DNA of 64,000 nt from Thalassospira sp. MCCC 1A03138. Its GTDB lineage: Bacteria > Pseudomonadota > Alphaproteobacteria > Rhodospirillales > Thalassospiraceae. Position 1 is the stretch's first letter. Every line of letters starts with the position of its first letter. The DNA lies in assembly GCF_002115785.1 (NCBI RefSeq), contig NZ_JFJY01000005.1:1-64000 (forward strand), given 5' to 3'. The position numbers and the translations under genes are program-made. This document shows positions 3,207-47,914 of the stretch, piece after piece. The notes beneath the pieces were generated by a model. The model was not told the origin of the DNA, made no database searches, and saw nothing but the letters and a program-made list of their open reading frames with translations.

Positions 3207-3269
3207 AAAAAAAGGGAGGCTGGTATATAGCCCGGAATTGTCCCGCACAATTTCCGGATACCAGCCCCC
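3207..3269 (-). terminator. Rho-independent terminator of the small RNA
   Basis: Outer stem GGCTGGTAT/ATACCAGCC, inner CCGGAA-type stem and a short loop, followed on the minus strand by CCC and seven Ts. No protein gene ends just upstream on this strand, which argues for a dedicated RNA gene. Confidence 0.8.
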
Positions 3270-3384
3270 TCGAGTGAGAGAGATCGACCTTCGGGGAGAG
3301 AGAGTCCCGAAGAACAGTGACCATCAGGTACGCCATGTCAGCCTGATGGCCCGTCGCAAACGACATTGCCGTCTGCATTTGACA
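3207..3384 (-). ncRNA. Candidate iron-regulated small RNA
   Basis: Read on the minus strand, about 175 nt fold into a series of hairpins. In order these are a short GTCG/CGAC stem, an 8-bp CCATCAGG/CCTGATGG stem (3321-3349), and a 7-bp CTTCGGG/CCCGAAG stem (3289-3312) whose 10-base loop is ACUCUCUCUC. An unpaired linker with a second CUCUCUC follows (3276-3282), then a long terminator stem (3218-3266) and seven Ts (3207-3213). No open frame there has a ribosome site or a recognisable protein. A promoter with a Fur-like box over its -35 lies just upstream. The architecture (loop-exposed CU repeats plus a Rho-independent end) resembles trans-acting regulatory RNAs. I could not assign it to a known family. 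Confidence 0.6.
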
Positions 3385-3390
3385 AAGACA

Positions 3391-3419
3391 GTCATAGAGC
3401 ATCAAAAACCTAATTGCAA
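3391..3419 (-). promoter_or_regulatory. Predicted sigma-70 promoter of the small RNA
   Basis: On the minus strand TTGCAA (3414-3419) and TATGAC (3391-3396) are 17 bp apart, each with 4 of 6 consensus matches. Transcription would start near 3384. Confidence 0.5.
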
Positions 3420-3431
3420 ACGATTATCACA
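3414..3431. promoter_or_regulatory. Fur-like box over the small-RNA promoter
   Basis: TTGCAAACGATTATCACA on the plus strand; its complement contains TGATAATCGTTTGCA, 12 of 15 matches to the Fur 7-1-7 core TGATAATCATTATCA. It covers the predicted -35 element, a position suited to repression. Similar sites lie at 34021 and 46783. Confidence 0.5.
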
Positions 3432-3679
3432 CGCGTTCGCATATTTTTTTGAGTTTTTTCAATAGCCATTGGAAATTCGCAGGATTTTCTCCCCGGATTT
3501 CACGCCCGCCCCGAATATATAGAATACTGTATACCGCGAAAAACATGGGGTTTGGGGCAATAGCGCTATTGTGTTTGCCGCAAAGCTCTGTTTGGATCAG
3601 GTCAATTACCCCTTAAGAGGTAGTCCGGGGAACGAAGCACCAAAAGAACCATAAAAAAACTGGCTCTGGAGTGTAAAGA

Positions 3680-5983
3680 ATGACGGGAGACAAAGCCGCG
3701 AAGACGGCTATTGCAGGGGGCGCTACGGGCCTCCTGACGTTACGGCGTATTTTGCTCGTAACAGGTTTGCTTTTATCGGGTGCAGTCACATGGATGCTAC
3801 TGTGGACCGGCGACACCTATCGAAACTTTGCCGTTGATACGCTGAACAATTCGGTCAGCGGCACAGTCAATTTCTTTGTCCGTTCACGCGTGGCACAGGA
3901 TTACGCAGACAAGGTCACACCCATCGTCAATGAATGGTCGCGCCTTGGCAGTTTGGTCAAAAGCTATCAGGATAACGATCAGGCCCGCATGAAGGCCGAA
4001 CTTAACATCCTTTCCAATGCCAGCCAGGTCGTTCAGGGCGAACTGGTTCTGGTCGAAACCATCGCCTATGACACCGATTTCAACCAGCTTGCGACCTCGG
4101 ATGCCAATCTGGGTGCCAGTGTGACCGATGATCCGGCGGTCATGGATTACCTTAAAACACGCGACAAGGCCGATGCCCGCAAACCGGTGACCTATATGTG
4201 GGCAACCCCTACCGGCAAACCGGTTTTCAGCACCATCGTTCCGGTCGGCGGTTTTCGTGCTGTCGGTTTTATGGAAGTCATCACCGATCCCCTGCCTACC
4301 CTTACAGGTATCGGCAAGGTGCTTGGCGGTAATTTCCGCATTCTTGGCGATGATGGCACCGTTCTGTTTGAAAGCCTTGAAGACGGTAAAACGACGGAAG
4401 GCGGCGAGTTCCTGCCCGGAGCCACCAGCACCGAGGCCCCTACCCCAGAAAATAAGGCAGAAGATACAAACGCAGCAGCCGTGACACCGGCCGACGGCAC
4501 CCGGCGTGCCACGGTCGATATCGAAATCGGCAATGACCGTGGCGGGGTTTGGGCCACCGCCACGTTTGATCGCGATATTACCGACTTCTATTCCCAGACC
4601 GACGATCTTCGGACCCTGTCGATCGAAATTCTGGTGGCCGTCCTTCTGGTTGGCTGGATCGCTGGCTGGATATTGCTCAGAACCACGGTATTTCGCAATC
4701 TGCGCGCCTTTGCCGGGGCGATGACATCGATCTCGAACGGGGACACCAATGTCCGTCTGCCCCGCGTCGGGTCCGATGAAATCGGTGAAATGCGCAAGGC
4801 CCTTGTCGGCCTGCGTGAAGCCGTGCGTCAGGCAATGATCCTGCAAAACATGGTCGAAAACACCCCAACCATGACCGCCCTGATCACGCCTGAAGGCGAA
4901 CTGACATATATTAATGCCAGTGCGCAAACCTATGTCGGTGGTGATGCCAGATCGGTTTCCGGCGACTTCCTGAAAGTCGGTGCGGAATTCCAGAAACGGC
5001 TTTCAAATCCAGCCAACCTGCCCTTTACCGAGGTGGTCGAGACCGAACGCGATCACCTTGAACTTCTGGCAGCGCCGGTGCGTGACAAGGACAATGTCCT
5101 TCTGGGCACCATGCTGGCCTGGAATGTGGTAACCGAACGCGAAGAAAGCCGCATCGCGGTTACGGAAATGATGGCCGAGGTCGCCCGCGTTGCGCAATCG
5201 GTCACCGAACAGTCCGAAGGGCTTCTTGGCCTTGCCCGTGATCTGACCAGCCAGTCGGAAAATACGGTCGATCAGTCGGGCAGCGCGCTTGACGTCTCGC
5301 GCGAGGCGGCAAGCAACACCCAGAACGTCGCCACCGCGGTCGAGGAACTGTCATCCTCGATTGCAGAAATCAACCGTCAGGCAACAGAGGCCGCAGACGT
5401 GACCAACCGGGCACGCTCCGAGGCCGAAGAAAGCCAGCGCAATATCGTCTCGCTTGAAAAGGCAAGTTCGGAAATCGGATCGATCATTGATCTGATCAAC
5501 GATATCGCGCATCGCACCAAGCTTCTGTCGCTAAACGCGACCATCGAAGCCGAACGTGCGGGCGAACTGGGGCGTGGCTTTGCCGTTGTCGCAAACGAGG
5601 TCAAATCGCTTGCCGATCAGACCGCGAGTGCAACCGGCCAGATCGGCGATCTGACCACCGCGATCCAGCAGGAAGTCCAGAAAGCCGCCCATTCCATCAG
5701 CACGGTGGGCGACGTTATTCATCAGGTCAACGACATCCAGTCGACCATCACCCATTCGGTGGATGAACAGCGTCGTGCCACCAGCGAGATTTCGGAAAAC
5801 GTGCAGCGCATTGCATCGGGGGCCGGATCGATGGACCAGATGATCCGGTTTGTGAATGACGGTGCGCAAAGCACGGGCCGCTCGGCCCATGACCTCAACA
5901 CCGCCAGCCGCGAACTTTCCGACATGGCGCGCAATCTTTCCGAACGCATGAAGGAATTCAGCGAACGGATGAAACTGACCTGA
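3680..5983 (+). CDS. Methyl-accepting chemotaxis protein with atypical tip
   Basis: A 767-residue chemoreceptor: transmembrane helix about 24-43, a roughly 270-residue periplasmic sensing region, a second helix about 313-333, HAMP (about 335-387), a PAS-like segment (about 395-490) and a long cytoplasmic coiled coil (about 510-760). The CheA/CheW-binding hairpin tip near 608 reads IAHRTKLLSLNATIEAERAG, where most receptors have QTNLLALNA and EAARAG. The Q-to-R, N-to-K and A-to-E changes are unusual. A GGAG site precedes the ATG. No CheR-binding pentapeptide is visible at the C-terminus. The gene is monocistronic with its own terminator. The ligand is unknown. Confidence 0.9.
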   Translation: MTGDKAAKTAIAGGATGLLTLRRILLVTGLLLSGAVTWMLLWTGDTYRNFAVDTLNNSVSGTVNFFVRSRVAQDYADKVTPIVNEWSRLGSLVKSYQDNDQARMKAELNILSNASQVVQGELVLVETIAYDTDFNQLATSDANLGASVTDDPAVMDYLKTRDKADARKPVTYMWATPTGKPVFSTIVPVGGFRAVGFMEVITDPLPTLTGIGKVLGGNFRILGDDGTVLFESLEDGKTTEGGEFLPGATSTEAPTPENKAEDTNAAAVTPADGTRRATVDIEIGNDRGGVWATATFDRDITDFYSQTDDLRTLSIEILVAVLLVGWIAGWILLRTTVFRNLRAFAGAMTSISNGDTNVRLPRVGSDEIGEMRKALVGLREAVRQAMILQNMVENTPTMTALITPEGELTYINASAQTYVGGDARSVSGDFLKVGAEFQKRLSNPANLPFTEVVETERDHLELLAAPVRDKDNVLLGTMLAWNVVTEREESRIAVTEMMAEVARVAQSVTEQSEGLLGLARDLTSQSENTVDQSGSALDVSREAASNTQNVATAVEELSSSIAEINRQATEAADVTNRARSEAEESQRNIVSLEKASSEIGSIIDLINDIAHRTKLLSLNATIEAERAGELGRGFAVVANEVKSLADQTASATGQIGDLTTAIQQEVQKAAHSISTVGDVIHQVNDIQSTITHSVDEQRRATSEISENVQRIASGAGSMDQMIRFVNDGAQSTGRSAHDLNTASRELSDMARNLSERMKEFSERMKLT

Positions 5984-33981: not shown

Positions 33982-34007
33982 GGTATTCCGATTGCCCGAA
34001 CCATCAC

Positions 34008-34034
34008 GATAATAATATTCAAAATCATTCGCAA
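34008..34034. promoter_or_regulatory. Fur-like box before the TonB-dependent receptor gene
   Basis: The 19 bp from 34008 to 34026 match 15 of 19 positions of the Fur consensus GATAATGATAATCATTATC. It overlaps AAAATCATTCGCAA (34021-34034), whose complement is identical over 14 bases to a site at 46783. Confidence 0.6.
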
Positions 34035-34063
34035 TTGGCAATTTATTTGATAAGGAAATCAGC

Positions 34064-36088
34064 ATGTCGCAGCCATCAAGACCGGTCTTGCCCGAAAAAT
34101 ACCGCCAACCGTTTTATGGCCTGTGCCGCGCAACCCTGCTTGCCGGTGTCGCCCTAACAGTACTTCCGGTAGCAGCCGTCGCACAAGAAACCAAAGCCAA
34201 AGACGAAACCGTTCTGGCACCAATCGAAGTCACAGCAAGCCAGAATAGCGCCCCAACTACGGCCGGGAGTGTAACGGTTACGCAGGATGATCTTGATCGC
34301 ATCAATCCGCAAACCATCAAGGATGTGTTTGCGAACGAACCATCGGTTCAGGTTGGCGGCCCGACCGCCATCGCGCAAAAGGTTTATGTGCAGGGCATCG
34401 AAAACACCAAGCTGAACGTTCAGGTAGACGGCACCCGGCAGGTCGATTCCACCTATCATCATATAGGCACCGCGATCATTGATCCGGGAATGCTGAAATC
34501 GGTAAAGGTTGAGTCCGGGATCGCCCCCGCCGATGCTGGACCAAATGCATTGGGCGGTTCAATGGCCTACGAAACCAAGGATGCCCGCGATATTCTTGCC
34601 CCGAATGATCCGTTCGGCGGCTTTGCCAAAATCCAGTATAACAGCAATACCAAAGGCCTCACCGAATGGCTGACCTTGGCCGGTCAGCACGACGGCTTCG
34701 AAGCTCTTGCCTATATCCAGAACAGCAATCAGGGCAATTACAAGGACGGCGATGACAACGAAGTTGCTGGCACGGCAGATGGCAGCGAAAACGGACTTGG
34801 CAAAATAGCCTTCACCGGCACCGAAGGTTCACGGATTGAAGCATTTGCAAGCCATTTTGAAGACGAAGGTGTGCGCCCTGCCCGGCCAAACTTTGGAACC
34901 CTTACCAGCGGTGCCTCGCCGCAGTGGATTTCATACAAAGATACCTCGCTTGGCATCAGTTATGTCGATGAACAGCCAACCGATCTTCTGGCACCGGAAC
35001 TGAGCCTCAATTACAGCAAAACGCATCTTGATGTTCCCAAACTGAACGGCAACACACACCTTGAAGCAGAAATTGAAACCCTGAACGGTAAGGCTGCCAA
35101 TACTTTTGACGTTGGAATGGGCGGGATAACAACTGGCGTCGATTTCTATCATGATGAAGCAACCGGCGGCGGCGACACGGCCCGCCCGGCTGGACGTGCC
35201 GGGCGATTTACCGAAGAAACAACCAATATCGGCGTCTTTTCGCAGGCACGCCTTTCGCTGACCGATCGCTGGCGCGTCTCGTTCGGCGGGCGCGGCGATC
35301 AACAGTGGTTCGAAGGTATTGACGGAACCGATTTCAGCGAATTCGGACTTAGCGGTAACGCCAATACCGAATATGACCTGACCGATGACCTGATGATCTA
35401 TGGCGGATTGGGTACAAGCTTTGGTGGACTTCCGCTGGGTGAGTCTGCGATCTACAACTATACCGGCATCTGGACCTATGACGGTTTCAAACCGTCCCGG
35501 TCGCATAACTACAAGGCGGGCGCACGCTATCAGTTGGCGGAATGGGATTTCGATGGAAACCTGTTCTACAACAAGATCAACGGTTCCCATTCGCTTGAAT
35601 ATACAACACGAAATACGACCAGCGATCTTGCAACACGTGGGATCAATCTGTCCGCCACCTGGACATACGGGCCCGGCTTTGTCCGCGCTGCCTATACCCA
35701 TACCGATGTAGAAAGAAATGGCAAAGTCCCGCTGAGCAACGATGCGTCCTATCAAGGCGTCATCGTCGGTGACATTGCAAACTTTGAAGTCGCCCACCGG
35801 TTTGATGCCCTTGGCATTCAGGTCGGCTCGACATCTGAACTGGCCCTGTCTGACGACGATCCCGAAAAGAACGGCAATGCCAAGCTCGACACTTACTTTG
35901 TTGCCAACCTGTATGGTGAATGGACGCCAGAGGCATTGTCGAATGCGGTAACCCTACGCGTCGATGCGCTGAATATTTTTGATCGTGACTATGTCGCCCG
36001 GACCACGCCGGGCTACGACAGCAGTGCAATTGAACCCTATCACGAGCCGGGGCGCACCTTCCTTGTTTCAGCAAAGGTGGCGTTCTGA
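34064..36088 (+). CDS. TonB-dependent outer-membrane receptor
   Basis: A 674-residue outer-membrane receptor: signal peptide (about 20-42, VAAVA-QE), a TonB box-like APIEVTAS segment near 50, plug domain (about 55-170; VYVQGIENTKLNVQVDGTRQ...PADAGPNALGGSMAYETKDA) and a 22-strand-type barrel ending in the aromatic LVSAKVAF. It probably imports an iron complex, given the Fur-like box and the linked iron-complex binding protein. I do not see the FRAP/NPNL haem-receptor motif, so a siderophore is more likely than haem. AAGGA precedes the ATG. The terminal Phe and the barrel look intact. Confidence 0.9.
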   Translation: MSQPSRPVLPEKYRQPFYGLCRATLLAGVALTVLPVAAVAQETKAKDETVLAPIEVTASQNSAPTTAGSVTVTQDDLDRINPQTIKDVFANEPSVQVGGPTAIAQKVYVQGIENTKLNVQVDGTRQVDSTYHHIGTAIIDPGMLKSVKVESGIAPADAGPNALGGSMAYETKDARDILAPNDPFGGFAKIQYNSNTKGLTEWLTLAGQHDGFEALAYIQNSNQGNYKDGDDNEVAGTADGSENGLGKIAFTGTEGSRIEAFASHFEDEGVRPARPNFGTLTSGASPQWISYKDTSLGISYVDEQPTDLLAPELSLNYSKTHLDVPKLNGNTHLEAEIETLNGKAANTFDVGMGGITTGVDFYHDEATGGGDTARPAGRAGRFTEETTNIGVFSQARLSLTDRWRVSFGGRGDQQWFEGIDGTDFSEFGLSGNANTEYDLTDDLMIYGGLGTSFGGLPLGESAIYNYTGIWTYDGFKPSRSHNYKAGARYQLAEWDFDGNLFYNKINGSHSLEYTTRNTTSDLATRGINLSATWTYGPGFVRAAYTHTDVERNGKVPLSNDASYQGVIVGDIANFEVAHRFDALGIQVGSTSELALSDDDPEKNGNAKLDTYFVANLYGEWTPEALSNAVTLRVDALNIFDRDYVARTTPGYDSSAIEPYHEPGRTFLVSAKVAF

Positions 36089-40601: not shown

Positions 40602-40677
40602 TGGTGAGCCCGACAGGATTCGAACCTGTGGCCAACTGATTAAAAGTCAGTTGCTCTACCAACTGAGCTACGGGCCC
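40602..40677 (-). tRNA. tRNA-Lys (UUU), copy 1
   Basis: 76 nt including encoded CCA. Acceptor GGGCCCG/CGGGCTC, anticodon loop CTTTTAA (anticodon TTT) and T-loop GGTTCGAATCC. Identical over its full length to the other two copies. Confidence 0.97.
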
Positions 40678-40695
40678 TCAACGTTGGTGAGCGGC

Positions 40696-40724
40696 CTTTT
40701 AATGTGCTGATCGCAAAGGGTCAA
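40696..40724 (-). promoter_or_regulatory. Promoter of tRNA-Lys copy 1
   Basis: TTGACC (40719-40724) and TAAAAG (40696-40701) on the minus strand with a 17-bp spacer, about 19 bp before the mature tRNA. Confidence 0.65.
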
Positions 40725-40870
40725 CCCCCCTTTTTCGATCAAACTGCATGACAGCCATTCAAATGGTAAAAAATATCAAAACCCGGCCCGTTCCCAATCC
40801 ACCCCAAATTGACATTCGCATCGGCTGGAAAGCGGCATGACAGTGATCGCAATAAAAATCATGAAAAAGA

Positions 40871-40906
40871 AAAAGCCCCCGAAACCGATTGGGTTTCAGG
40901 GGCTTA
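40871..40906 (-). terminator. Terminator of tRNA-Lys copy 2
   Basis: On the minus strand AAGCCCCTGAAACC pairs with GGTTTCGGGGGCTT, followed by TTTCTTTTTC. Confidence 0.85.
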
Positions 40907-40907
40907 T

Positions 40908-40983
40908 TGGTGAGCCCGACAGGATTCGAACCTGTGGCCAACTGATTAAAAGTCAGTTGCTCTACCAACTGAGCTACGGGCCC
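40908..40983 (-). tRNA. tRNA-Lys (UUU), copy 2
   Basis: 76 nt, identical to copy 1. Confidence 0.97.
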
Positions 40984-41001
40984 TCAACGTTGGTGAACGG
41001 C

Positions 41002-41030
41002 CTTTTAATGTGCTGATCGCAAAGGGTCAA
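41002..41030 (-). promoter_or_regulatory. Promoter of tRNA-Lys copy 2
   Basis: Same TTGACC-17-TAAAAG element as copy 1, offset by exactly 306 bp. Confidence 0.65.
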
Positions 41031-41176
41031 CCCCCCTTTTTCGATCAAACTGCATGACAGCCATTCAAATGGTAAAAAATATCAAAACCCGGCCCGTTCC
41101 CAATCCACCCCAAATTGACATTCGCATCGGCTGGAAAGCGGCATGACAGTGATCGCAATAAAAATCATGAAAAAGA

Positions 41177-41212
41177 AAAAGCCCCCGAAACCGATTGGGT
41201 TTCAGGGGCTTA
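41177..41212 (-). terminator. Terminator of tRNA-Lys copy 3
   Basis: Identical hairpin to that of copy 2. Confidence 0.85.
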
Positions 41213-41213
41213 T

Positions 41214-41289
41214 TGGTGAGCCCGACAGGATTCGAACCTGTGGCCAACTGATTAAAAGTCAGTTGCTCTACCAACTGAGCTACGGGCCC
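41214..41289 (-). tRNA. tRNA-Lys (UUU), copy 3
   Basis: 76 nt, identical to copies 1 and 2. It is the furthest upstream copy in the direction of transcription and is likely the ancestral one, since only its promoter flank is unique. Confidence 0.97.
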
Positions 41290-41307
41290 TCAACGTTGGT
41301 GAAGCGC

Positions 41308-41336
41308 GTTTTAATGGGACTGGCGGCTGCGGTCAA
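41308..41336 (-). promoter_or_regulatory. Promoter of tRNA-Lys copy 3
   Basis: TTGACC (41331-41336) and TAAAAC (41308-41313), 17-bp spacer. The spacer differs completely from the duplicated units while the boxes are conserved, which supports the promoter call. Confidence 0.65.
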
Positions 41337-46530: not shown

Positions 46531-46832
46531 CTTCCCAGCCTATTCTTGCCACAGTTATTGGGCTTTATCGGATTTCGAAAGCCAGATGACAGCGTTAGAG
46601 CCAGAAAACACGAGAATCAAGAAAATAGCTGAAAACCAGCCACCGCAGGATGTGGTCCGTTATCAACAGCGCCCCAGCACAAGAAACACCTTATCAAGCG
46701 TAAAATCGCCCGGCTGGATTTGACGCAGCACAACGCGACTACAGCAAAAAGATGAAAAAAGGCAGTTGACACAACTTATTTGTTGCGAATGATTTTCAAT
46801 CGCTTTATTGTGGGCGTAACAATAGGAATGGG
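46531..46832. other. Divergent region, EamA exporter / Fur-boxed small gene
   Basis: About 300 bp. The right end holds TTGACA (about 46765) and the Fur-like box at 46783-46800. The left part shows no clear element beyond the expected promoter of the exporter gene. Confidence 0.4.
46783..46800. promoter_or_regulatory. Fur-like box before the small gene
   Basis: TTGCGAATGATTTTCAAT. Its complement matches TGATAATCATTATCA at 12 of 15 positions; the first 14 bases are identical to the complement of 34021-34034. It lies 33 bp before the start codon. Confidence 0.55.
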
Positions 46833-47045
46833 ATGCGAGCAATGAAATATGTGGATCAGGAACTGACCATTGAGGAAATGCTGGCCGATCCGATCGTCCA
46901 GACATTAATGCGCTATGATGGTATTTCTGCCAGTGACGTTCGTCACACGATTGATCAGGTTTTGCAAAATCGCCTGCCATCACCCCCTGTTCGCGTCCGA
47001 AGCAGCCGCGCCCCCCACCATAACTGGCGCATGAAAGCGGCGTAA
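46833..47045 (+). CDS. Small protein behind a Fur-like box, unknown function
   Basis: A 70-residue basic protein: an acidic N-terminal half with TIEEMLADPIVQTLMRYDGISASDVRHTIDQVLQ (helical, resembling a small adaptor domain) and a C-terminal basic tail PPVRVRSSRAPHHNWRMKAA. AGGA precedes the ATG at correct spacing. I do not recognise a family. The Fur-like box 33 bp upstream suggests iron-repressed expression, so an iron-response adaptor is possible. It converges closely (11 bp) on the DUF547 gene. Confidence 0.6.
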   Translation: MRAMKYVDQELTIEEMLADPIVQTLMRYDGISASDVRHTIDQVLQNRLPSPPVRVRSSRAPHHNWRMKAA

Positions 47046-47056
47046 ACAACGCGACC

Positions 47057-47914
47057 TCAGGGATGGCTATCGTTCAATGACCAGTCATAATGATAGAAGC
47101 TGATGGACAGGTCATCGCCGTGAACGCTCAGCCATGTTGCAAGCTCCAATCCGGCATAACGCGCCAGATGATCGGAAAATGCCGCATCGCTTTTGCCAAA
47201 ATCGGACCGATACCAGTCAAAAATCGAAGACAGTTCGATCTCTGATCCGTCTTCGACCAATCTCACCGCCCGTTCATCCTGGATGAAAGCAAGAGCCGCC
47301 TTATCAAGCTGCTCTTCGATCCGGGTTCCGTCATAGGCCGTCGCTGCCAACGCCGGACAACCAATTGACGCACAATTAAGAGCATAGTGAATACGCGCAT
47401 CCTGCCAGATCGGACGCAGGATACGATGTTCGATATCGTTCAGGCTCAAAGACCTGCCTTCGACGGTCAAAAGTTTTTTGTCCCAAGGGCCTGACGAAAA
47501 TAATCCAAGCGAAAAAAGCCCCGGTGAAATGTCGATATCCCGAATGCTGTCGACCGGGTAATGATCCATGACCACCGCAACAGTCTGCGCATTGTAAAGA
47601 TTGATCCAGAAAGCCATTTGCTGATCGCGGTTATATCCGTCAATTTTAACCGCCTGCATGACATCAAGGTAATCTGAGAGTTGCGTAAGGCTTGAAGATT
47701 TGGCACCTGCATAATCAAATGCCGTGACGCCAGACGAAACCACCACCAGATGATGATCAAGGATCGTCTGCCAGACAGAATGATCAATGATGGCGTCGTT
47801 CGAATCATCATGCGCCTGCCAATCGGACCATAGATCAGCATCAGGTGCGGCAATTGCAGGTGCCGACACCATCGCCCAAAGCATGATCAAAACAGGCATA
47901 AGCAGATGTTTCAA
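47057..47914 (-). CDS. DUF547-family exported protein
   Basis: A 285-residue protein with a Sec signal peptide (cleavage near AIA-AP, residue 23) and a DUF547 domain (about 70-250): NRDQQMAFWINLYNAQTVAVVMDHYPVDSIRDI, LTVEGRSLSLNDIEHRILRP and HYALNCASIGCPALAATAYDG are typical. The Cys residues in NCASIGCP are characteristic of the family. The function is unknown; related proteins are periplasmic and sometimes linked to glutaredoxin-like genes. Intact length. Confidence 0.82.
   Translation of the reverse strand: MKHLLMPVLIMLWAMVSAPAIAAPDADLWSDWQAHDDSNDAIIDHSVWQTILDHHLVVVSSGVTAFDYAGAKSSSLTQLSDYLDVMQAVKIDGYNRDQQMAFWINLYNAQTVAVVMDHYPVDSIRDIDISPGLFSLGLFSSGPWDKKLLTVEGRSLSLNDIEHRILRPIWQDARIHYALNCASIGCPALAATAYDGTRIEEQLDKAALAFIQDERAVRLVEDGSEIELSSIFDWYRSDFGKSDAAFSDHLARYAGLELATWLSVHGDDLSISFYHYDWSLNDSHP

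Follow-up and report, generated by a model that had tools for sequence, protein, structure and literature searches.

A putative Fur-controlled small RNA of Thalassospira predicted to mask Shine-Dalgarno sequences of iron-protein genes

The Fur-repressed RNAs RyhB and PrrF spare iron by blocking the mRNAs of iron-using proteins. Superoxide dismutase and aconitase are the classical targets of such iron-sparing small RNAs (sRNAs). PrrF is made up of two siblings, PrrF1 and PrrF2, which are arranged in tandem.

IsrR of Staphylococcus is a Fur-controlled, genus-wide RNA composed of hairpins. Its unpaired C-rich regions are directed against the Shine-Dalgarno (SD) sequences of mRNAs that encode Fe-S proteins, among them glutamate synthase (PMC9410917). 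FsrA of Bacillus subtilis is likewise Fur-regulated and has a C-rich motif against SD sequences (PMC9410917, PMC3751524). RusT of Caulobacter crescentus is an alphaproteobacterial sRNA that is induced by iron starvation and has four stem-loops (PMC11005374). The Thalassospira RNA described here was likened to IsrR, FsrA, and RusT by description.

In the open-access literature, no Fur-controlled RNA of Thalassospira, the Rhodospirillales, Magnetospirillum, or the alphaproteobacteria was found among the matches listed, as judged from titles and the starts of abstracts. Nine Thalassospira species under "the normal growth condition" have been surveyed by small-RNA sequencing, and the main text of that study contains none of six stretches of the sRNA (PMC6413936).

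The locus lies in a window of 64,000 nucleotides, the whole stretch of DNA analyzed, from Thalassospira sp. MCCC 1A03138 (the source genome). Comparison with related genomes suggests that it is probably a trans-acting, Fur-repressed iron-sparing sRNA that masks SD sequences.

Locus, parts, and conservation of the RNA

The reading of window 3384-3207 (minus strand) as an intergenic RNA gene with an intrinsic terminator holds when the locus is compared across the genus. The preliminary description had claimed a promoter-like pair separated by 17 nt, three to four hairpins, a long terminal stem followed by seven Ts, and a Fur-like box covering the -35 box. All four were recovered. The promoter pair is conserved in the genus, three hairpins are clear, and a weak fourth of 4 bp appears in the consensus fold. 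The terminal stem and its seven Ts are present, and the box does not vary among the 29 genomes. The parts are as follows.

3207..3384, minus: small RNA, some 178 nt long, its inferred start lying 6-8 nt 3' of the -10 box
3415..3429, minus: Fur-like 7-1-7 box TGATAATCGTTTGCA, overlapping the -35 box; 15 of 15 columns invariant among 29 sequences
3430..3441, minus: conserved 12 nt directly 5' of the Fur-like box (mean identity 0.98), a possible candidate for a second Fur half-site
3414..3419, minus: -35 box TTGCAA, conserved in the genus
3391..3396, minus: -10 box TATGAC, conserved in the genus
3353..3383, minus: hairpin 1, with 3 pairs changed on both sides
3319..3351, minus: hairpin 2, with 3 pairs changed on both sides
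3288..3313, minus: hairpin 3, bearing the first CU-repeat loop; predicted in single-sequence and consensus folds
3296..3305, minus: loop ACUCUCUCUC of hairpin 3, predicted anti-SD seed 1 from conservation and accessibility
3274..3283, minus: linker UCUCUCUCAC, the loop of weak hairpin 4, predicted seed 2 from conservation and accessibility
3207..3268, minus: intrinsic terminator (stem 3268-3216, T7 at 3213-3207), with 8 both-side pair changes in two helices
1915..2976, minus: downstream neighbor, a SPOR-domain protein (Pfam SPOR), adjoining the sRNA in 29 of 29 loci
3680..5983, plus: divergent upstream neighbor, a methyl-accepting chemotaxis protein (Pfam MCPsignal), in 28 of 29 loci

The SPOR and chemotaxis-receptor neighbors are not thought to belong to the system. 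Elsewhere in the window, at 40602-41316, three tRNA-Lys(ttt) genes lie within a tandem repeat with a unit of 306 bp (2.3 copies, 99% matches).

Among 60 genomes searched at the DNA level (the source genome and 59 relatives), the sRNA was found in all 29 of Thalassospira, the source genome and 28 others, and in none of the 31 from other genera of the order. An exact scan of genome contigs for a 21-base piece of the sRNA returned 22 contigs, 21 from Thalassospira and one from a Rhodospirillales MAG. When 297 genomes of the order were searched with the covariance model, 29 of 29 genus genomes were matched, together with 3 of the 268 others at E 0.02-0.07. This search scored the best eight candidates per genome and missed a sibling RNA in the source genome (see below), so the absence of the sRNA outside the genus is not proven by these counts. 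Of the three matches outside the genus, the one inspected (L080) was set aside because no T run follows its stem.

The 185 nt of 3391-3207 fold with -76.1 kcal/mol (z -4.61), and none of 200 dinucleotide shuffles folded as well. The covariation alignment is composed of 29 sequences, 25 of them distinct, with 97.8% paired cells. The stem covariation in relatives that the preliminary description had proposed as a check is present. Both sides are changed in 14 of 55 pairs (7.1 on average in shuffles; 0 of 500 as high) and in 60 cells (13.8 in shuffles; 0 of 500 as high), and further pair types number 38 (34.4 in shuffles; 8 of 500 as high), although these significances are overstated because the shuffles ignore relatedness. 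When the structure is shifted by 1-3 columns, just 1-4 both-side pair changes are left. The changes back hairpins 1 and 2 and the terminator. In hairpin 3, 7 of 8 pairs never vary and the eighth is unpaired in one sequence; with its pairs nearly frozen, the alignment is uninformative on this stem. The loop of hairpin 2, ACAUGGCGU (3338-3330), is invariant in 29 of 29 although its stem covaries.

A match to a known housekeeping RNA, which was to be checked in Rfam, was not found, as no family reached its cut-off. At the gathering score the sRNA region gave nothing, RyhB-type families included, and a permissive limit of E 10 brought up four unrelated chance matches, all sub-threshold. Just one of the four is an sRNA-type family, mmgR/suhB (RF00519); scoring 13.3 bits where the cut-off is 41 (E 3.8), it was rejected as chance level.

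Promoter, Fur-like box, and regulator

The -35 box is TTGCAA in 24 of 29 genomes and TTGCAT in 5 (mean identity 0.97). The -10 box is TATGAC in 27, TATCAC in one, and TATAAC in one of the 29 (mean identity 0.99). Their spacing is 17 nt in all 29, while only 3 of the 17 spacer columns are invariant (mean identity 0.70), and identity further upstream, beyond 3441, falls to 0.46. An invariant box and a nearly invariant promoter in drifting surroundings form the pattern left by a regulated promoter that functions and by an RNA that stands alone. A consensus promoter scanner did not report this promoter, so the call rests on conservation.

The box TGATAATCGTTTGCA matches the E. coli 7-1-7 Fur consensus at 11 of 14 positions, a fit reached by 10 of 2000 dinucleotide-shuffled promoters. 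With up to two mismatches the box word occurs at 17 sites in the source genome, the sRNA's own included, versus 2 for the reversed word. One of these sites precedes an imelysin ORF, 36 nt 5' of its first start codon, and another is the promoter of the sibling RNA. Many of the others lie inside ORFs and are presumably chance occurrences. A further Fur-like word, with one mismatch to the sRNA box, is located between YbjQ-type and NAD synthase genes (C1:498281-498295, L033 1501-1515).

The core of the box had been reported as shared with two other sites in the window. The resemblance to the site upstream of a TonB-dependent receptor gene (34021) stands in a modest form, with 11 of 15 positions matching the sRNA box and 7 of 200 mononucleotide shuffles as good. 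Against the Fur consensus this site reaches 12 of 15, with the consensus N counted as a match, and 2 of 200 shuffles were as good. At 46783 the word is present, but it carries three mismatches, and the window holds three such words versus 2.3 expected by chance. The 67-aa ORF behind it (46784-47045) has no Pfam or NCBIfam match. Upstream of the TonB-dependent receptor gene, window 34000-34064 contains two overlapping Fur-like words.

A search with the Plug family found eight TonB receptors in the source genome. Fur-consensus matches are good 5' of L084, L088, and L086 (equalled by 0, 1, and 2 of 200 mononucleotide shuffles) and fair 5' of L087 and L085 (6 and 11 of 200). Upstream of L082, L083, and L089, no Fur-consensus match was found.

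Three Fur-family proteins are encoded in the source genome. L048 is Fur-like and falls below every NCBIfam cut-off. Its best PDB matches are 4ray/4raz (212 and 206 bits, E 4e-62 and 3e-60), which we take to be Magnetospirillum Fur, followed by 5fd5/5fd6 (190 bits, 3e-55), presumably rhizobial Fur/Mur. L049 is Irr and passes the cut-offs of two NCBIfam Irr models. L050 is Zur-like and lies below the NCBIfam cut-off. In the Rhodospirillales, Fur remained the global iron regulator according to PMC3751524. Fur control of the sRNA promoter is likely.

CU-repeat loops, the sibling RNA, and predicted targets

The sRNA possesses two CU-repeat loops that are antisense to the SD word GAGAGAGA. The loop of hairpin 3 contains UCUCUCUC in 24 of 29 genomes and CUCUCUC in 29 of 29, being shorter in the remaining five. 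The linker UCUCUCUCAC is identical in all 29. Mean unpaired probabilities in the source RNA are 0.97-1.0 for the hairpin-3 loop and 0.93-0.95 for the linker; in the divergent RNA of genome G027 they are 0.85-0.99 for both segments.

A sibling RNA is located outside the window in the source genome (contig C1, about 47,390-47,610; L036 1480-1700) and is also present in G009 (L081, L327). It was traced through a second weak covariance match in G009 (22.9 bits). The DNA upstream of that match resembles one of the Fur-like sites of the source genome (L036, C1 about 47,411), where the covariance model scores 29.5 bits. In both genomes the promoter is TTGCGC, 17 nt, TATAAC, with a Fur-like box directly 5' of the -35 box (10 of 14 consensus positions matched in the source genome, 12 of 14 in G009). 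The hairpin CCUGCGGG-UCUCUCUC-CCCGCAGG has its loop in common with the main RNA and a different stem, in which one pair is exchanged from G-C to A-U between the two genomes. Next come a linker, CUCUCA, and a long stem whose UGCGGGA loop is that of the main RNA. The T-rich tail is interrupted (TTTCTCTTTT in the source genome, TTCCTCTTTCC in G009), which makes termination less certain. The folds have z -5.62 (source genome) and z -6.80 (G009). A DUF1513 gene lies upstream of the sibling in both genomes, and in the source genome about 4 kb separate the sibling from the end of a preceding imelysin gene. Rfam gave no family at cut-off for the sibling region and two matches at a permissive threshold. 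From its shared loop and promoter layout, the sibling probably acts together with the main RNA.

The pattern GAGAGAGA-N2-12-ATG occurs 14 times in the source genome, versus 3 for the reversed pattern, and 10-22 times in each of the 29 genus genomes (reversed, 1-6). At 10-22 per genome, it is not commoner in the genus than in four relatives (9-17), so any difference lies in the kind of gene behind the word. A longer antisense site, AGTGAGAGAGATCGACC, was also tried with up to three mismatches. One of its eight matches is the sRNA itself and only that of QueG is placed as a ribosome-binding site, so the 8-mer was preferred.

Pfam was applied to 13 of the 14 source genes behind GAGAGAGA; the fourteenth, a 20-codon ORF, was left out. 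Six were counted as iron genes: an IorA-type [2Fe-2S] subunit, a PreA-type dehydrogenase with a 4Fe-4S dicluster domain, a NuoI-type Fer4 protein, QueG, PhoX, and a GltB-type N-terminal domain (first 500 aa scanned). PhoX is an iron enzyme and GltB carries a 3Fe-4S cluster. Sites also precede a CxxCxxCC putative zinc-or-iron protein and the complex I protein NDUFA12. The genes without an iron link are an ABC ATPase, an ABC permease, MnhG, a MauE/glutaredoxin-like protein, and an RMF-like ORF.

Eight of the 29 genus genomes were examined site by site. These are the source genome and 7 of the 10 relatives with complete lists; G005, G015, and G028 were omitted as close to other genomes. The eight genomes contain 109 sites in 56 ortholog groups, 48 of which have an ORF of at least 60 aa. 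Pfam was run on 47 of these, the exception being one group of 79 aa (G001_L225). Twelve groups are found in at least three of the eight genomes, and seven of them are iron proteins: PreA (8 of 8), GltB (7), PhoX (5), IorA, RlmN, and a KatG-type peroxidase (4 each), and a 2Fe-2S thioredoxin-like subunit (3). The recurring groups not counted as iron are NDUFA12 (8 of 8), CxxCxxCC (7), an ABC permease and a CBS protein (4 each), and an FAD oxidase (3).

In 11 of the 18 iron groups the exact word is present in a single one of the eight genomes. These groups are NuoI, QueG, class I fumarase, cytochrome c, cytochrome c', di-haem peroxidase, ferredoxin, cytochrome b561, SdhB, ETF-QO, and serine dehydratase, the last below the Pfam cut-off. 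Fumarase, ETF-QO, serine dehydratase, and peroxidase have iron cofactors, as do GltB and PhoX. The iron count excludes NDUFA12, NuoJ, CxxCxxCC, an RlmD-like protein, and two FAD oxidases. Over half of the ortholog groups lack a known iron link, and no superoxide dismutase or aconitase was seen with the GAGAGAGA word.

As a control, the word was followed in four genomes of the order in which no sRNA copy had been detected (9-17 rows each, 56 rows, 53 distinct sites). Their 36 ORFs of at least 60 aa, 25 scanned with Pfam and 11 judged by eye, include three iron proteins (radical SAM, cytochrome c, PhyH); given the share judged by eye, a further iron protein may have gone unnoticed in this control. 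Six of the by-eye ORFs resemble FtsA, EF-Tu, Amt, TrpG, thiolase, and SucB, and five were unrecognized. Another SD word of equal composition, GAAGGAGA, has no iron protein behind its 11 distinct sites (13 rows), all of which were scanned.

Among ORFs of at least 60 aa, iron genes make up 6 of 13 in the source genome versus 3 of 36 in the relatives (p 0.0065, one-sided Fisher) and versus 0 of 9 for GAAGGAGA (p 0.023, one-sided Fisher). For the groups of the eight genomes the count is 18 of 48 versus 3 of 36 (p 0.0018, one-sided Fisher), for groups without a source-genome member 12 of 35 (p 0.0076), and for G027 alone 5 of 11 (p 0.011). A strict count took in only those Pfam families that are of the Fe-S, radical-SAM, or haem kind. 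It gives 13 of 48 groups versus 2 of 36 (p 0.0095), 4 of 13 in the source genome (p 0.036), 9 of 35 in groups without a source-genome member (p 0.02), and 3 of 11 in G027 (p 0.076). The spread of iron groups over the genomes does not clearly exceed that of non-iron groups (Mann-Whitney p 0.052). The sorting into iron and non-iron was unblinded, with the hypothesis known, and related genomes are not independent. The enrichment of iron genes behind GAGAGAGA is consistent but moderate.

Comparative genomics, with CU loops antisense to SD words before iron genes, supports the iron-sparing interpretation of the preliminary description. When iron is plentiful, Fur-Fe would sit on the box over the -35 element and keep the sRNA gene off. 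As iron falls, Fur would leave and both RNAs would be made. Their CU loops would then pair with GAGAGAGA SD words in mRNAs of iron-sulphur, haem, and other iron proteins, block ribosomes, and so free iron for essential uses. The predicted targets in the source genome are the PreA-type 4Fe-4S dehydrogenase, GltB, NuoI, the IorA-type 2Fe-2S subunit, QueG, and PhoX, with NDUFA12 and the CxxCxxCC protein as further candidates. Hfq would be a likely helper; the source genome has an hfq gene (E 3.5e-31), and the sRNA has a T7 tail.

Alternative readings and comparison with known systems

An open frame of 95 codons crosses the sRNA, as would be expected of a small protein or a dual-function RNA. This frame runs on beyond the terminator, however, and the invariant loops and compensatory stem changes are those of an RNA. 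The earlier statement that no plausible protein is encoded agrees with the 1- and 2-base indels among relatives and with the lack of any apparent conserved short protein, and a coding role is hardly credible. The RNA could also be a cis-acting leader, an attenuator of the SPOR-domain gene with termination or conditional read-through from the Fur-controlled promoter. In all 29 loci that gene follows the RNA on the same strand, so synteny cannot separate a leader from a trans-acting sRNA. Yet 230 nt lie between the RNA and the SPOR gene, and the 60 nt past the T run are at chance level (0.33 ungapped identity). The SPOR protein has no evident iron link, and the sibling RNA adjoins other genes. 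A leader is thus very unlikely.

Control by Irr, Zur, or NtrX in place of Fur draws on the presence of Irr, with two NCBIfam cut-offs passed, and of a Zur-like protein, on the imperfect 7-1-7 palindrome of the box, and on the source-genome sibling box with only 10 of 14 positions. The box nevertheless fits the 7-1-7 Fur layout, and similar words lie 5' of imelysin and TonB receptor genes, which leaves another regulator improbable. The targets themselves could be different, for example outer-membrane transporters as for RusT, with the link between GAGAGAGA and iron a coincidence or the work of another CU-rich RNA. The invariant hairpin-2 loop has no assigned role, the iron-target statistics are moderate with most iron groups in one genome, and the linker pairs, less well, with an unrelated SD word too. 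Against this, the enrichment recurs in groups without a source-genome member and is weaker in the four relatives without a detected copy, and none of the 14 source sites is at the start of any of the eight TonB receptor genes found. Other targets are unlikely, if less so than another regulator. The trans-acting, SD-masking RNA is the preferred reading.

Two features of Fur-repressed iron-sparing sRNAs as a functional class are found at the locus, a Fur-type box over the promoter and a structured RNA with its own putative promoter and terminator. A third, of the IsrR and FsrA type, is the pair of unpaired pyrimidine-rich motifs antisense to the SD sequence (unpaired probability 0.93-1.0 in the source RNA). 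With RyhB, PrrF1-PrrF2, and NrrF the RNA would share the Fur-repressed iron-sparing logic, and PrrF likewise has two siblings. The PrrF pair is in tandem, whereas the siblings here are on different contigs.

IsrR belongs to another phylum and has C runs where CU repeats are found here. The targets of IsrR were tested by reporters and probing (PMC9410917), whereas those of the Thalassospira RNA are predicted. FsrA is of another lineage and acts with the FbpABC proteins (PMC9410917, PMC3751524). RusT is 118 nt long and NtrYX-controlled, with membrane proteins as its largest target class, and its locus is between lolA and xth (PMC11005374); the sRNA here lies between SPOR and MCP genes. For Caulobacter, PMC3751524 contains a speculation on processed Fur-repressed transcripts.

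If the preferred reading is true, the regulon would be marked by one common ribosome-binding word, and the circuit would be directly testable in a culturable marine alphaproteobacterium. The habitat of Thalassospira is seawater, which is often iron-poor, and the circuit would thus bear on iron rationing by marine bacteria. Tentatively, Thalassospira may possess a two-gene family of Fur-controlled RNAs that reads a GAGAGAGA code, on which its iron genes have converged so that a single loop could shut down an entire iron-consuming regulon, and that arose independently of RyhB, PrrF, FsrA, and IsrR. Going by the open-access matches listed, and the Caulobacter speculation aside, no Fur-controlled iron-sparing RNA would have been shown in the Alphaproteobacteria before this family. 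The family would then be another case of iron-sparing RNAs invented convergently.
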